Below the pieces are notes generated by a model, which saw nothing but the letters and a program-made list of their open reading frames with translations, was not told the origin of the DNA and ran no database searches. A program made the position numbers and the translations under genes. A stretch of DNA of 64,000 nucleotides from a virus, in IMG/VR virus record IMGVR_UViG_3300017971_000277, positions 1 through 64,000 of that record; one strand, 5' to 3'. Shown piece after piece: positions 4,254-51,930 of this stretch (the first letter of the stretch is position 1; each line of letters opens with the position of its first letter).

Positions 4254-4280
4254 GGCAACTCCGCGATGAGAGAGAGAGAG

Positions 4281-4310
4281 AGAGAGGGGGGCGCTAGCGC
4301 CCCCCTCTCT
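4281..4310. terminator. Perfect 15-bp inverted repeat beside a GA microsatellite
   Basis: AGAGAGGGGGGCGCT is followed at once by its exact reverse complement, giving a very GC-rich stem with essentially no loop, next to a (GA)n run at about 4268-4285. It lies between two basic-protein genes. It could terminate or attenuate leftward transcription, but there is no U-tract, so a transcript-stabilising or processing hairpin is equally possible. Confidence 0.5.
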
Positions 4311-9691: not shown

Positions 9692-10797
9692 TCTTTCTCC
9701 TCTGCTGGGGTGTAGTCGGGGTCGCTCAACTGAGGAACGACCTCGAGCACCTTGGGCCAGTCCTTCTTGCGGAACTTCTTCCAGCCCTCGATGTTCTTCG
9801 TGATGAGTGGATGGAGGTCGTAGTAGCCACCACCCTTGCCAGCCTTCAGCACGTAGGGATGTCGCTTCCCGTCGTGAAAGAAGGTCCGTTCGTTGCTCAA
9901 GTACCACTCGAGCAAAGCTTCGTCCACGTCCACACCAAGCTTGGTGATCTGCCCGGTGAAGGTTGGATGTGGATACTGAGGTTCGGTGTAGAAGGGAAGG
10001 ACGACCCTGCGGAACGCCGGAGCAGCGCGGTTCTTCGTCACCTCTCCCACCAGCCGCTTTCCGATCTCTACACCCGTCTCGTCGTCCACGATGTCCGACG
10101 TGCGATACGTGGTCGTCTGTCCCTTCGGGTTGGCGAAAGCAAGCTGCACCCGCTGGCTGCTGTAGAAAGGCCAGGACTTGCCGCCCGTGCTCTCCTCTCG
10201 AGCCTGACCGCGGGCGTCGAAACTTGCGACGCGGATCTGGTTGCTGGCAATGACTAGAGCCTTCGCCTTGCTCACCAGGCTGATGATGAGTTGGCATCCT
10301 TGCGACATCGTCAGCGCCTTGGAGAGATCGCGCTTCGCCATACCCTTCGCCTGAAGGTGATCGGTCGAGAGAGCAGCGATGGAGTCGAGCGCAATCACGA
10401 CTTCAGGCTCGCCTGGGGCCTCGATGATCTTCTTGAGGAGCTTCTGCACGGCAGTAAAGAAGTCCTCGGTTGTCTCGACCTCTCGGACCAGCAGGTTGTC
10501 TAGATCGCCACCCAGAAGCTCGAACAGGAATGGGTTGAACGCACCCTCGGTTTCGAGAAGGACTGCTACACCACCGTTTTGCTGGCAGGAGATCAGGGTC
10601 AGGTAGAGCATGATCGTCTTGCCCGACCCCCAGTTGCCGTAGATCTCTGCCAGACCTCCGTAACGCCAGCCTCCCCCGAGAGCCCAGTCGAGGCTGGGAA
10701 TCCCGGTCGGCACGAATCCCTTCTGCCAGATGGGTTGGCTCGCGGTCGTTAGACCATCGAGCGCACCCATAAATGCCTTTTGGAGCTTGTCGCTCAC
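9688..10797 (-). CDS. RecA/UvsX-like recombinase
   Basis: About 369 aa. Strand-exchange ATPase. Walker A IYGNWGSGKT (52-61), LLETEGAF for the catalytic glutamate region, Walker B VVIALDSIAAL, then a conserved NQIR motif in the L2 region. The GTG giving MSDKLQKAF overlaps the upstream TGA as GTGA and is preferred; a GTG three codons earlier is possible. It sits with ssDNA-binding, UvsY-like and Mre11/Rad50 genes in a T4-like recombination set. Confidence 0.9.
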   Translation of the reverse strand: MSDKLQKAFMGALDGLTTASQPIWQKGFVPTGIPSLDWALGGGWRYGGLAEIYGNWGSGKTIMLYLTLISCQQNGGVAVLLETEGAFNPFLFELLGGDLDNLLVREVETTEDFFTAVQKLLKKIIEAPGEPEVVIALDSIAALSTDHLQAKGMAKRDLSKALTMSQGCQLIISLVSKAKALVIASNQIRVASFDARGQAREESTGGKSWPFYSSQRVQLAFANPKGQTTTYRTSDIVDDETGVEIGKRLVGEVTKNRAAPAFRRVVLPFYTEPQYPHPTFTGQITKLGVDVDEALLEWYLSNERTFFHDGKRHPYVLKAGKGGGYYDLHPLITKNIEGWKKFRKKDWPKVLEVVPQLSDPDYTPAEEKE

Positions 10798-11486
10798 ACA
10801 GTCCACTTCGCAGCGAGAGCCGACTTGATCTCCTTGGCGAAGGAGATGATGTCCTTGTGATCGAGGTCGGTCTGCTCGCGGATGTATTCGCGCACGACCT
10901 CGGAGGTGAAGCGCATCAGCGCCACGTCGATGCGGACGTAGTCACTGACGCTGAGCGGAGGAACAGCAGTCTCCGCCTGGGTGCGGTTCCACTGAACCTG
11001 CACGCTGGTCTTCGGAGAATCGGTCTTGGTTTCCGCACTCCACGAAGCCAGTTCGACCTTCGTCTCGCCGGAGTCCTCGTCCTCGTCCTCGTCCTCGTCG
11101 GGAGGCGGAGGCGCGGCTGGATGGGACTTCTTGATGATTGCTGCGTTCGCCTTGTCGATCGCTTCCGACTTGCTGTCGGACAGCGGCTCACCGTCATCGC
11201 TGCTTCCCCAGCCGTCATCATCGTCAGCAGGAGGAGGCGGAGGAGGCGGAGGAGGCGCGGGGCTTGGCCTCGGCCCACTCGGCGTCGGCGGAGGAGGCGG
11301 AGGACCGTCCGAGCCACCCATCAGGTCCATGATCTTTGCCAGGTTCTTGCCGCGGGGAGCGCTCTTCCCAAGCTCCCAGTAGCGAATCGTGTTCGGGTTG
11401 ACGCCGATCTCGTCGGCGACATCGGAGCGCTTCTTGCCCTGCTTTTGCCGCCAGGAGATCAGCGCTTCCGGGCTGAAATCTTCCAT
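10794..11486 (-). CDS. Helix-turn-helix protein with poly-proline and acidic linker
   Basis: 230 aa from the ATG with GAGG upstream (MEDFSPEALI). Residues about 8-50 are an XRE-type helix-turn-helix (SWRQKQGKKRSDVADEIGVN to RYWELGK). A long linker holds P6 and P9 runs and an EDEDEDED acidic block, and the C-terminal 70 residues form a separate helical domain (DYVRIDVALMRFTSEVV). It could be a repressor or replication-region regulator. Two competing hairpins lie in its leader (11556-11588) and may be its operator or an attenuator. Confidence 0.75.
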   Translation of the reverse strand: MEDFSPEALISWRQKQGKKRSDVADEIGVNPNTIRYWELGKSAPRGKNLAKIMDLMGGSDGPPPPPPTPSGPRPSPAPPPPPPPPPADDDDGWGSSDDGEPLSDSKSEAIDKANAAIIKKSHPAAPPPPDEDEDEDEDSGETKVELASWSAETKTDSPKTSVQVQWNRTQAETAVPPLSVSDYVRIDVALMRFTSEVVREYIREQTDLDHKDIISFAKEIKSALAAKWTV

Positions 11487-11555
11487 TGTGTCTACCTCAA
11501 TAGGGGATGGGGAGGGAAGCAGCATTCCCTCTCCCATCAGTGGTCCAAGCTCCCC

Positions 11556-11588
11556 GACGCCTCCCGCTAAGAGGCGTCCATTAGCGGG
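11556..11588 (-). promoter_or_regulatory. Overlapping inverted repeats: alternative hairpins in the HTH leader
   Basis: On the minus strand four 8-base elements follow: CCCGCTAA, GACGCCTC, TTAGCGGG, GAGGCGTC. The first pairs perfectly with the third and the second with the fourth. The pairs interleave, so both full stems cannot form together. The element is about 70 bases upstream of the helix-turn-helix gene. It could act as an RNA switch/attenuator, or as a double operator for the encoded regulator. Confidence 0.55.
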
Positions 11589-11658
11589 CAGGAGCTAGGC
11601 TGCGACCTGTCTTAATGCTCGCCTCAGACACCACACCGGAGCCTGAGACGAGTTCGGC

Positions 11659-11952
11659 CTAAGCCGGTGTTTCGATGACCGCGACGACCGCGTCCGCATT
11701 GATGCAGACGATCTCGTGCCCACCCACGCTGAACGTGTTGCCAGCCGTCTTCATGTAGTGGACGTGATTCCCGGCCTTCAGGTCGGAGATCTGGTCGCCG
11801 ACCGAAACGATGATGCCCTCTTGGATGTTCTCACCGATCTTGGCCTGCGTGGGCAGCGTCAGCTTCTCGTGCGTCGGAGCCAACCGCTTCAGGTAGCAGT
11901 AGCGGTTGCGCACTCGAACAGGAAGCTGAGGAACGACGATCTTGTCACCCAT
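11659..11952 (-). CDS. GroES-like co-chaperonin
   Basis: 97 aa. The arrangement matches Cpn10: an N-terminal beta strand (LPVRVRNRYCYLKRL), a mobile loop replaced by PTQAKIGENIQ, EGIIVSVGDQIS, then GNHVHYMKTAGNTFSVGGHE and a C-terminal DAVVAVIETPA (compare DIxAVIE of GroES). Phage versions (T4 gp31) work with host GroEL to fold the capsid or other viral proteins. Here it lies among replication genes. The mobile loop lacks a clear IVL-type GroEL contact. Confidence 0.7.
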   Translation of the reverse strand: MGDKIVVPQLPVRVRNRYCYLKRLAPTHEKLTLPTQAKIGENIQEGIIVSVGDQISDLKAGNHVHYMKTAGNTFSVGGHEIVCINADAVVAVIETPA

Positions 11953-11954
11953 CG

Positions 11955-13127
11955 CTACTCCTCCAGGGCCGACTCGAGGTCAGCGCGGATGTCGCCGGGA
12001 GGCGGAGGAGGCGGCGATCCTCCGGCCTGCGGAACGAAGCCGACCTCGGTCGCCGACTTCCACCCGTGAGACTGGTCGAGGGGCATGATCTTGAGCTTCT
12101 CCCCGTGACCCTTGTCCACGTAGCCAGTCTGGATCTGCTCTCCGCTGAGCTTGACCGTCTGCCCGTTGACGCCAGCCCAGAACTCTGCCTCGAGCAGAGC
12201 CGAGTCGGTCGGGGTCGGAGGCGGCTTGGGAGCGCTGGGGTGGGCAGGGAGGCCGGCAGCCTTGGCAGCCTGAGCGTTCTTGCGCCGGATCTCCTCCATC
12301 TGCGAATCGACCGACTTGGCCTGCGCGGGCGGCTTGCTTTCCCGCTGCGGCTCGCTGTTGGTCGGCGCAGGCGCGTCTCCGCTCTCTCGGTCAGCCTCCC
12401 GCTGCGCCTGGCGAGCCTTGCGGTAAGCCTCCTCGGTGCCCTCGAGACAGGCACGAATGTAGTCCGGCTCGTCGGCCTCGAGCACGTAGTTCTTGGCGAA
12501 CAGGTCTTCTTCGACCCACGAGGGATCGCCAAGCGGAGTCGGCTTCGGCTTCGGCACGACCTTCCACGCCGGGAACCCGTCAGCCGTCTTGGTCTTGGGC
12601 GTGTAGACCACCGTGATGTCGTGGCCCTCGTCCGCGTCGGTGATGTCACCGTAGTCCGGGTCGAGGATGATGGAGAGGATCTCGCGCAGGACGGTGCGGT
12701 TGGTATCCCACTGTAGCGGACCCTTGCTCTGCCAGGACTCCCCTTCTGCGTCCTTGTCTTGATCTCCGATGGTTCGCGCGACTGCGAACATGATGATGCG
12801 CTTGGCCATCCGCATGAACTTCGCCCGCTTCTTGTCAGCCTCACTTCCAGCCTTTAGGCGCTGAAGCTCCTCGATCATCGGGTCTTCCGCATCCGGGTCG
12901 AACTGGCTCGGAGGAACGATGACGTTCTTGTTCGGCCCGACGTTAAAGCACTTCGTGACCTCTTCGTAGAAGATGTCGCGATCTCCGGTCGGAGGACAGA
13001 TGCGGATGACATTCCGACCCTCCGCGAGCTTGAGGTAACCGGACTTCCCGCCCTTCGACCTCTCGGCTTCTTCACGGGCGAGAGCAGCCTCCTGCTCCCG
13101 CACCTTGTCCAAATTCAGCTTGCCCAT
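11955..13127 (-). CDS. gp32-like single-stranded DNA-binding protein (probable)
   Basis: 390 aa from ATG (MGKLNLDKV) with GAGGAG upstream; start overlaps the upstream stop (TAATG). Residues about 30-180 contain GYLKLAEGRNVIRICPP and a following FYEEVTKCFNVG, the pattern of T4 gp32-type OB-fold proteins. The C-terminus carries PPPPPP and ends in an acidic tail (ADLESALEE), as in many ssDNA-binding proteins that recruit partners. Context (polymerase, UvsY-like, RecA) fits. The family call rests on pattern and position. Confidence 0.65.
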   Translation of the reverse strand: MGKLNLDKVREQEAALAREEAERSKGGKSGYLKLAEGRNVIRICPPTGDRDIFYEEVTKCFNVGPNKNVIVPPSQFDPDAEDPMIEELQRLKAGSEADKKRAKFMRMAKRIIMFAVARTIGDQDKDAEGESWQSKGPLQWDTNRTVLREILSIILDPDYGDITDADEGHDITVVYTPKTKTADGFPAWKVVPKPKPTPLGDPSWVEEDLFAKNYVLEADEPDYIRACLEGTEEAYRKARQAQREADRESGDAPAPTNSEPQRESKPPAQAKSVDSQMEEIRRKNAQAAKAAGLPAHPSAPKPPPTPTDSALLEAEFWAGVNGQTVKLSGEQIQTGYVDKGHGEKLKIMPLDQSHGWKSATEVGFVPQAGGSPPPPPPGDIRADLESALEE

Positions 13128-13762
13128 TAGCTCCTCTTTGCCTTGCGGATTGCCTTGTAGCGGTCTGCCCACGCCTCCATCTCGGCGTCGGTCACTGGTT
13201 TCTTGTTGGTTTCGTCGGTCCCTCGCCCATCGGTGGACGGTTCGAACCAAGCGCGCTCGCCCTCGGTCAACTCAGCAGAGAAGGTCTTGTTCGGCTTGTC
13301 GATCGGAAGCGACTCAAGCTCGACTCGCTGCCTGCTGTTAAGCGACTGGAGCATATCCTTCCGCTGCCGAAACGCTTCTTCGACTCGCTTCATCACCGCT
13401 GCGGTCTGCTGTAGCTTCTCGAGCAGCTTGACCGCAACGGTATATTCTGGATCGGACATCGCGATGTCGTTCATGTTCTGCACGGTCGCTCGCCGGCCAT
13501 TCTCTGCGCAGACAGCTTCCGCACGAACACGAGCCCTTGGCAGGATCTCCTCCTCGACCACACGCTTCTGCCGCTTGGCAGCCTGATCTGCGTGTGCGTG
13601 GAGGATTGCCCAATGCATGAAGATCTCAGCCTGACGGACCATATCCGACAGCATGTTCTGCTGGTCGATTCTGATTGCGTCCGCTAGGTCGCACTCGAGA
13701 AGTTCCGGGTGCTTCTGATAGCGGTTGAGGATTTCGCTGTAGCTCACGCGAGTTGTCTCCAC
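13127..13762 (-). CDS. UvsY-like recombination mediator (probable)
   Basis: 211 aa, almost all helical. The core (IRIDQQNMLSDMVRQAEIF, then VEEAFRQRKDMLQSLNSRQR) resembles a phage family I associate with UvsY-type mediators, which load RecA/UvsX onto SSB-coated DNA. It is next to the ssDNA-binding protein and polymerase and overlaps the polymerase end by 19 bases. GTG start. The mediator role is inferred from pattern and context. Confidence 0.55.
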   Translation of the reverse strand: METTRVSYSEILNRYQKHPELLECDLADAIRIDQQNMLSDMVRQAEIFMHWAILHAHADQAAKRQKRVVEEEILPRARVRAEAVCAENGRRATVQNMNDIAMSDPEYTVAVKLLEKLQQTAAVMKRVEEAFRQRKDMLQSLNSRQRVELESLPIDKPNKTFSAELTEGERAWFEPSTDGRGTDETNKKPVTDAEMEAWADRYKAIRKAKRS

Positions 13763-16317
13763 TCACCTTTTGATGTTTTAACCCTTCGTCCGTCAATGTC
13801 AAGCTCGCGAAGATTTCCCCAGGACTTTCCGACCTCAAAGTCCACAGTGAGAGGGACTTCGCCCATGAAAGAAAACCCAAGGTTCTCCATCACGTCTCGG
13901 CAGACACCGCAGAGTTTAAAAAGGTCGCTTGGCTTAACTTCCCACAGGATCGAGTCGTAGACCGTCAGGACCATATGCGCGTCGAATCCAAGCTCGCGCA
14001 CGATACGCCCTAGACGCACGATCGCAAACAGAGTGAAGTCGCTAGCCGTGCTTTGGACCGGGAAGTTAAGCGCTGCTCGCTTGGCTTCGTTGTTGATCCT
14101 AGGGTAGTAGCGACGCCGACCAAACTCCGTCTCTTGGTAGCCGTGTTCGGTGATGATGGCGATCTGCTGACGCATCCACGCCCAAACTTGCGGGTGTGCT
14201 TGCTTGTGCGCAGAAAGGAAGTCGAGAGCGGCCTCTTCCGCCTCCCTCTCCATCTCCAGCATCTTGCGCTGCGACAGCTTGAGCTTCCTAGCTTTGGACC
14301 TCGCCTCTTTCACGAAGTCGTTGATGAGGCTCTGCTCGCTCTTGCCGTAGATGATGCCGAAGTTCACTGCTTTGGCTCGAGAGCGCTGCGCCTTCGTTAC
14401 CTCCTCGAGAGAGCACCCGTAAACGCGAGCAGCGGTCGCTGTGTGAACGTCCAGACCATCCATGTAGATCTGGATGAGATTCACGTCGCCAGAAAGCATC
14501 GCTAGTGTGCGTAGCTCAGCCTGGCTGTAGTCCACCTGAACGTAGACGTAGCCGTCTCGAGGCACGAAGCACGCCTTCAGAATCCGGCCATCCTCCAGCC
14601 CAGCACGCTCCACGGTGTCCTTCCGAACCTGATTCAGAAGGTTCGGGTCGCTCGAGCTAGGTCGTCCGGTGACCGTTCCGTTCATGCGGATAGACGTGTG
14701 GACGAATTCGGAAAGCTCGCTGGCTTTGGTCAACGAGCCGTAGTAGGTCTTGTAGAGCTTCCCGACGCGACGAAGCCGCAGGAGCCAAAAGCAGAAGGGC
14801 TCCTCCTCGTAGTGCTCGAGAACGTCCTTGTCGGTGCAGTAGCCTCCGGTGCCTGTCTCTTTGATCTTCGGCAGATGGAAGTAGTTCTGCATCAGGTCCG
14901 CAATCTGGTGCGGAGCATCGAAGGACAGGCTCTTGTTGTTCTTGAATTCCCAAGACTGCACTTGGGGAAGTGTGCGGATTTCCTTCTCGGCTTCCTCGAG
15001 CATCCCCTCAAGAACGGAGCCAAGCTCTAGGAGCGCTTCGGTGTTGAGTCGAAGCCCACGAGTCTCCATCCTGCGGAACTCGTGCCCCAGCGGAAGCTGA
15101 AGCTCGTGATGGAGCCACTGCTGCGCTTCGTTTAGCTCCGGCTCAAGCTTGAGGCGAACGCGCCAAGTTGCGTCAACGTCGTAGGCTCCATACTCACAGA
15201 GCTTTCGCGTGTCTCGCAGGTTGAACATATCCTTCCACGGAGGGATGGTCGTGTAGCGTCCTGCAAGGTAGCGCAGACCAGAACATCCGACATCGCTTCG
15301 AATGAGGTGCGCCGCATACATGGTGTCGAAGTCGAGCTTGAGCGTCTCTCCGGGCCAGTAGGCTTTCCGCCACCGCTCATCGAACTGCACCGCGTTCTGC
15401 CCAAAGAAGGTGTGCTTCGGCCAGAACTCAGCAAAGAGAGCATGGATCTGGCGTAGCTCGTCATCGCTCCAGTAGGTGAGGCTCGAGATCCCACGCGCCT
15501 CGTAGGGGATCATGCGAGCGTGGCCTGGACCAGCAGAGAAGCAGAGAAGGACCAGCCGCGTGCCTGGGTGGGGGAAGGTCGTCTTCTCGAGGTCTGCTGT
15601 TCCGGTTTCGAAGTCGAAGCAGATAGTCGAGCCTTCGGGGAACTCGTCAAGGAACCTCTTCACGTCCTCGACGGTGTTGGCGCGCTGGTAGTCGGTCTTG
15701 ATCTCGTCTCCCACGCGCAAGTCTCTCGCAATCGCTTTCTCTCTCAGCCAGATCAGATCGCTGACCATACGCGCACGGATCGAGTCATATTCGTCCGGGT
15801 CTGCGTGCATGAGCGAAAGCGGCTGTTCAAACGCATAGACAGGGATCTTCGGATCTAGCGTGCAGGGAAGCCCTACGCGCCGAAAGCGATCCACACCGCT
15901 GAACCCAGTCAGCCAGTGAAGTGCCTTCCCACCCATCGCCACGATCGCTTTTGGACGGATGTCTCGGATCTCCTTTGCGAGATGTCCCTTGCAGCGCTTC
16001 CACCACGAGTCCTTGGGATCCGCGCCAAAGGGGCTGCACTTGACGCAGTTGGTCAGGTAGCAGTCCTGCACGTCGATCGATGAGGCGGAAAGCAGCCCGC
16101 GGAAGATCCTGCCGTTTGCTCCAGTGAACGATGACCCGATCTCGTCGTCCTCCGCTCCTGGCGCAAACCCGCAGAAAAACAAGAACGGATCTTGCGGTCC
16201 CGAACCGCGCATCAGGTTCGTGCGGAGATCAGGGTTGTCGCATAGCTCGCACGAAGTACATCTCAGGTCGGTGCGGGCATTTCCGCCGACGATTCTGACC
16301 AGATCGAATTCAGGCAC
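13744..16317 (-). CDS. polA-like: Family A DNA polymerase with N-terminal UDG-like domain
   Basis: 857 aa, GTG start. Residues 1-200 are a family-4 uracil-DNA-glycosylase-like domain: all four Fe-S cysteines are placed (C20, C23, C94, C109) and FAPGAEDDEIG resembles the GEAPGxxED motif, but Phe replaces its Glu and the usual C-terminal HPS is absent. Next is a DEDDy 3'-5' exonuclease (DFETG 235-239; FGQNAVQFD; YGAYDVD). The polymerase has motif A VDYSQAELR (595-603), motif B RSRAKAVNFGIIYG (645-658) and motif C VYDS (786-789) in place of VHDE. The 5'-3' exonuclease is a separate gene. A glycosylase-like N-terminus on a phage polymerase is known from SPO1-type phages. Confidence 0.93.
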   Translation of the reverse strand: MPEFDLVRIVGGNARTDLRCTSCELCDNPDLRTNLMRGSGPQDPFLFFCGFAPGAEDDEIGSSFTGANGRIFRGLLSASSIDVQDCYLTNCVKCSPFGADPKDSWWKRCKGHLAKEIRDIRPKAIVAMGGKALHWLTGFSGVDRFRRVGLPCTLDPKIPVYAFEQPLSLMHADPDEYDSIRARMVSDLIWLREKAIARDLRVGDEIKTDYQRANTVEDVKRFLDEFPEGSTICFDFETGTADLEKTTFPHPGTRLVLLCFSAGPGHARMIPYEARGISSLTYWSDDELRQIHALFAEFWPKHTFFGQNAVQFDERWRKAYWPGETLKLDFDTMYAAHLIRSDVGCSGLRYLAGRYTTIPPWKDMFNLRDTRKLCEYGAYDVDATWRVRLKLEPELNEAQQWLHHELQLPLGHEFRRMETRGLRLNTEALLELGSVLEGMLEEAEKEIRTLPQVQSWEFKNNKSLSFDAPHQIADLMQNYFHLPKIKETGTGGYCTDKDVLEHYEEEPFCFWLLRLRRVGKLYKTYYGSLTKASELSEFVHTSIRMNGTVTGRPSSSDPNLLNQVRKDTVERAGLEDGRILKACFVPRDGYVYVQVDYSQAELRTLAMLSGDVNLIQIYMDGLDVHTATAARVYGCSLEEVTKAQRSRAKAVNFGIIYGKSEQSLINDFVKEARSKARKLKLSQRKMLEMEREAEEAALDFLSAHKQAHPQVWAWMRQQIAIITEHGYQETEFGRRRYYPRINNEAKRAALNFPVQSTASDFTLFAIVRLGRIVRELGFDAHMVLTVYDSILWEVKPSDLFKLCGVCRDVMENLGFSFMGEVPLTVDFEVGKSWGNLRELDIDGRRVKTSKGEWRQLA

Positions 16318-40580: not shown

Positions 40581-40970
40581 CTAGCGCTGGGTCGTCGTGA
40601 CGATCACGTAGTTGAGCGGGTAGTTAACCCGTCCCGCGTCGTCCTTGAAGTAGGTTCCTGGCTCAGCAGTTGCCGTGATTCGTCCAGGCCACTTGGGCAG
40701 GACGTTCCACTTGTTGTCCAGCAGATTATTGATTTCCACCGCTTTTGCCAAGCCCGCCTCGGCATTCACGTTGCGGACGACGACCTGAAACGCCGGTCGT
40801 CGGGTCGGATCGTCTGGGAAGGAGACGCCGCCTGTATGCACGACGACGACCCCATTCTCCGATTCGACCGGAAGTGCTTGGATCCAAAGGTCTTCGCCAA
40901 GCACACCTACGCTATTGGCAGCCAGATAGGCTGCCAATAGCTCGAGCAGTAGGTTGCTGTCTTTGGGCAC
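40581..40970 (-). CDS. Tail terminator / completion protein (probable)
   Basis: 129 aa. LLLELLAAYLAANSVG at the start, RRPAFQVVVRNVNAEAGLAK in the middle and NYVIVTTTQR at the end follow the alpha-beta pattern of phage tail terminator (gpU-like) proteins. Position before the tail tube agrees. Confidence 0.6.
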   Translation of the reverse strand: MPKDSNLLLELLAAYLAANSVGVLGEDLWIQALPVESENGVVVVHTGGVSFPDDPTRRPAFQVVVRNVNAEAGLAKAVEINNLLDNKWNVLPKWPGRITATAEPGTYFKDDAGRVNYPLNYVIVTTTQR

Positions 40971-51855: not shown

Positions 51856-51930
51856 AGAAGCCTCCTAGTGAATGGGGGCTGAGAGCCGAAAAGCCCTCAG
51901 CCCCCGAGTTCGGTCCTAGTCGGTCGAGGT

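Follow-up and report, generated by a model that had tools for sequence, protein, structure and literature searches.

Interleaved inverted repeats within a three-hairpin gap of a viral replication operon: a candidate transcript boundary between SSB-GroES and HTH-UvsX genes

Gene neighbourhood and organization of the repeats

The window, i.e. the whole stretch of 64,000 nt analysed here, originates from an uncultured bacterial virus and belongs to a virus record of 72,862 bases. Around the repeats, all genes lie on the minus strand, in the order PolA-type polymerase, an ORF without assigned function, SSB, a GroES-like gene, the gap under study, an XRE-type HTH gene, UvsX/RecA, SbcD and SbcC. The polymerase (13744-16317) combines an N-terminal uracil-DNA glycosylase-like domain with a C-terminal PolA domain. 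The GroES-like gene starts 2 nt past the SSB stop, and no convincing reading frame is present in the ORF list for the gap behind it (11487-11658). The following features define the locus:

11659-11952, minus strand: GroES-like (Cpn10) gene upstream of the gap (Pfam PF00166, E 1.2e-07; ORF list)
11487-11658, minus strand: structured non-coding gap of 172 nt, which represents the leader of the HTH gene and the 3' region of GroES
11556-11578, no strand assigned: inverted repeat H1 with arms GACGCCTC / GAGGCGTC and a 7-base loop (I15 of the inverted-repeat list)
11563-11588, no strand assigned: inverted repeat H2 with arms CCCGCTAA / TTAGCGGG and a 10-base loop (I19 of the same list)
11494-11498, minus strand: Shine-Dalgarno motif GAGGT, recognized from the sequence, 7 nt ahead of ATG 11486
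10794-11486, minus strand: XRE-type HTH gene (PF01381, E 6.6e-10; ORF list), which overlaps the UvsX start

The sequence-only reading of this site described four perfect 8-base segments that pair 1-3 and 2-4, cannot both close fully and precede an HTH regulator, and all of this was confirmed. Both repeats are exact, with perfect 8-base arms at 11556-11563/11571-11578 (H1) and 11563-11570/11581-11588 (H2), so that the four segments span 11556-11588. Base 11563 is common to both, the two pairings are mutually exclusive as nested helices, and the XRE-type HTH gene is located directly downstream. Its most likely start, judged from the sequence, is ATG 11486 behind GAGGT; the alternative ATG 11537 was rejected, as its Shine-Dalgarno spacing is weak and it would extend the N-terminus before the HTH domain. 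The encoded protein (10794-11486) contains an unusual linker that is proline-rich and acidic, its C-terminal part falls into no family, and no relatives of it were found.

Fold of the gap and the SSB-UvsX boundary in relatives

The gap with its short flanks (11486-11672) is predicted to fold at -86.8 kcal/mol on the minus strand (z -4.0), but foldability alone does not pick the strand, since the plus strand also reaches z -3.55. By energy the gap ranks second among 373 sequences (372 tiles of 172 nt and the gap itself), which we count in favour of a boundary between transcripts; in terms of z-score, 12 of the 372 tiles equal or exceed it, and its best 50-nt piece takes rank 15 of 2558 in the window. 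The minus-strand gap folds as three hairpin modules:

11618-11652, minus strand: module A, a hairpin with a 12-pair outer stem, shortly after the GroES stop codon
11545-11599, minus strand: module B, whose outer stem (11591-11599/11545-11553, one mismatch) encloses the interleaved repeats (I14; suboptimal folds)
11506-11538, minus strand: module C, the third hairpin, which ends 7 nt ahead of the Shine-Dalgarno site

Two pairs in the outer stem of module A are G-U if the RNA comes from the minus strand, whereas the plus strand has C-A mismatches in their place. Module A thus fits an RNA of the minus strand, on which the operon is encoded. None of the three hairpins has a U-tract, and a search of 11300-12100 on both strands for intrinsic terminators, i.e. 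a hairpin with a U-tract, returned 0 sites. Very strong hairpins without U-tracts are also present at 51874-51905, 4279-4310 and 40909-40943, the first of which is located behind the major capsid gene and ahead of a ribosome-site-like AGGAG. A four-codon frame (ATG-GAC-GCC-TCT-TAG, 11567-11581, minus strand) without clear ribosome site lies inside module B.

The only other copy of the locus that we found belongs to IMGVR_UViG_3300017963_000679 (L038), which is the same virus and identical in this region. The GroES, UvsX and whole-polymerase searches each returned this contig only, and the portal search retrieved the same virus only. The HTH-protein search, with 600 pattern stretches, revealed 0 relatives, the 23-mer had 0 matches in genome_contigs, and the GroES, HTH and DNA-region queries matched none of the phage records; a diverged relative carrying the interleaved element was not found by any of these protein, DNA and 23-mer searches. 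SSB or UvsX was present in 0 of the 21 capsid-relative records checked (21 of 32 loci, some of the records being fragments). True relatives were retrieved with a polymerase palm query, whose 13 loci include L038, the same virus. They harbor the polymerase, SSB and UvsX with neither GroES nor HTH in between (tblastn, ORFs), and tblastn at E 0.01 detected no GroES or HTH in the 12 loci L039-L050.

A strong hairpin occupies the gap between SSB and UvsX/RecA in eight of the ten phages examined, namely, in L039, L040, L043, L044, L046, L048, Lysinibacillus phage LysYB1 and Bacillus phage Goe26, which correspond to fewer than eight independent cases because L046 and L048 are close kin. The gaps of the remaining two, L041 (9 nt) and Microcystis phage Mel-JY01 (8 nt), are too short for a hairpin; the recombinase of L041, for which tblastn gave no match, was assigned from its position and ORF. 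The count does not include L042, L045, L047, L049 and L050, in which tblastn showed no SSB-UvsX pair, and from five SSB matches in phages it draws on match records H1, H3 and H5, with match records H2 and H4 left out. A T-rich tail resembling an intrinsic terminator follows the gap hairpin in three of the eight (L040, L043, LysYB1). The stability of these hairpins is rarely reached elsewhere in the same sequences: none of the six IMG/VR loci has more than 5 segments of 50 nt (out of 331-732) that are as stable, and the corresponding numbers for the two phage records are 2 of 268 and 1 of 262. However, four of the six IMG/VR loci have one or two other gaps with stronger hairpins, and the SSB-UvsX position may therefore not be special.

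Two of these gaps show additional structures. In L040 (12711-12910) an intrinsic terminator with a T6 tail precedes another structured element (about 12815-12905), which ends in a T5 tail, has no match in Rfam and could be a small RNA or a leader. In L046 (3700-3742) the SSB-UvsX gap contains an interleaved 7+7 pair, in which the bases TATTCCT of the hairpin loop and 3' arm are complementary to AGGAATA at the ribosome site of UvsX and could pair with it.

Operator, chance and RNA switch as alternative explanations

The strongest rival to a transcript boundary, although in our judgement an unlikely one, is a DNA operator, in which the interleaved palindromes would be overlapping candidate sites through which the HTH protein would repress the gene that encodes it, together with UvsX, whose start this gene overlaps. 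Since H1 and H2 consist of Watson-Crick pairs throughout, each forms a perfect palindrome in double-stranded DNA, and an XRE-type HTH domain is encoded right behind the site. Yet the usual XRE operators are shorter than 8-base arms placed 7 or 10 bases apart, and a second site beyond chance expectation is missing from the window: neither the 23-mer nor the H2 palindrome recurs there with up to three mismatches, and the same search with the H1 palindrome gave only a chance-level match. Nor is there a sigma-70-like promoter in 11300-12100, a consensus that may not be the promoter type of this phage or its host.

We consider it improbable that the repeats are a neutral by-product, i.e. a GC-rich gap hairpin that happened to gain a second repeat. 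Interleaved 8+8 pairs (span up to 45 nt, a definition fixed post hoc when the finding was known) occur once in the 64,000-nt window compared with 0.017 on average in 60 dinucleotide shuffles, one of which contained any, and shuffling the 172-nt gap produced such a pair in 3 of 40,000 cases. The pattern is nevertheless a single one, picked post hoc from 64 kb, and the number of 8-base inverted repeats in the window is high (100 versus 41.6 expected), so that part of its rarity is due to a hairpin-rich genome. Among 46 loci (332,740 bases, L038 included) no interleaved 8+8 pair was found except in L038, the same virus. Interleaved 7-mers are located inside coding sequence in L006 and L043 (ORF list) and in the capsid/portal region of the same virus as the window in L005 and L037, while those of L008 were judged by their fold only.

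Last in our order comes an RNA switch or translational operator, which we likewise regard as improbable and in which a ligand or a protein (e.g. SSB or HTH) would select among H1, H2 and an H-type pseudoknot that is partly open, and would thereby control the HTH-UvsX genes. Its attraction is the near-equal predicted energy of the two folds. The isolated minus-strand hairpins are calculated at -13.2 (H1) and -11.6 kcal/mol (H2), the two best folds with flanks at -27.9 (H2) and -27.6 kcal/mol (H1 with the outer stem), and in longer RNA the H2:H1 ratio is about 75:25 with an ensemble difference of 0.65 kcal/mol. As a prediction, the two-state nature of the middle module is thus right. However, the pairing of the HTH-gene Shine-Dalgarno site and start codon is practically equal with H1 or H2 forced, a terminator/antiterminator pair is lacking, and Rfam returned no gathering match in the window and only sub-threshold matches outside the gap. 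The sequence-only reading had called such folds typical of attenuators or riboswitches; given the unchanged access to the Shine-Dalgarno site, the absence of a U-tract terminator and the lack of an Rfam family, neither a riboswitch nor an attenuator finds support. We see no indication that the alternation between H1 and H2 serves as a switch, and the element is not a proven one.

A complete pseudoknot built from H1 and H2 with the given loops looks impossible according to helix coordinates. The shallow groove measures about 34 A over 8 bp. In the minus-strand geometry the 2-base loop can cross the deep groove of H1, but the crossing of the shallow groove of H2 has no linking base, which seems to bar the full pseudoknot sterically; opening H2 to 4-5 bp would make room. 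Our literature searches gave no published limits for groove-crossing loops. Type III antitoxin ToxI consists of tandem pseudoknot repeats of about 35 nt before the ToxN gene, and we rejected this class because the element is single copy and the downstream gene is HTH_3.

Precedent for an RNA switch exists in phage T4, where gp32 binds to a pseudoknot of the mRNA that encodes it (PMC535899). This gene 32 operator of T4 and RB69 likewise is a short element near replication and recombination genes with arms pairing 1-3 and 2-4; it precedes SSB itself, carries UUAAA/UAAA repeats and is followed by the ribosome site. In contrast, the element described here is located two genes behind SSB, and its loops leave no room for a complete pseudoknot. 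By analogy, the T4 operator is the nearest counterpart of an RNA switch at this locus, yet the site fails its defining features; a gene 32-type pseudoknot operator was rejected, since the SSB gene lies upstream of the element and the leader has no UUAAA/UAAA repeats. Least probable, and in our view very much so, is a two-state RNA that would pass between H1 and H2 through a partly opened pseudoknot within the outer stem; locked by a protein of the phage (e.g. SSB or HTH), it would tune the ratio of SSB-GroES to HTH-UvsX during replication.

A proposed transcript boundary in the replication operon

We favour, in this order, a transcript boundary, an HTH operator, a neutral origin and an RNA switch. 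The first, to which we give an even chance, holds that the gap hairpins form a boundary (a partial terminator, a processing or a stability element) between the SSB(-GroES) and the HTH-UvsX units. The repeats would be the middle of a three-hairpin chain in the mRNA between the SSB-GroES and the HTH-UvsX-SbcD genes; in a polycistronic phage transcript, this chain would pause or partly end transcription, or block or guide RNA decay and cleavage, and the outcome would be more SSB and GroES than downstream recombination proteins. We infer both transcription through the gap and its effect on expression. The G-U pairs of module A, the energy rank of the gap and the hairpins at the SSB-UvsX gap of most relatives examined count for a boundary, while the absence of a U-tract after any hairpin of the window and the direct neighbourhood of the gap to GroES instead of SSB count against it. 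The boundary role is favoured because the place matches one that is marked by a hairpin in most relatives examined; in this phage GroES and HTH sit there and the hairpin region is larger.

The likeness to the SSB-UvsX/RecA boundaries of other phages consists in a strong hairpin that separates the SSB unit from the recombinase unit following it in a co-directional replication operon; it differs in that GroES and HTH intervene, three modules are present, the middle one is interleaved and a T-rich tail is missing. Hairpins without U-tract are known from GC-rich bacteria as I-shaped intrinsic hairpins, an example being TtsaD of the alr-groEL1 operon of M. tuberculosis (PMC5335608), and termination by them is described as contradictory in that paper. 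They share with our element the GC-richness, the position inside an operon and the lack of a U-tract.

If the gap is a transcript boundary, it would add to the cases in which hairpins determine how much SSB is made relative to recombinase in the replication operons of phages; judging from the comparison, a hairpin at this boundary seems to recur in phages that are distantly related. As a compact test object, the two-state module would furthermore suit studies of co-transcriptional folding.
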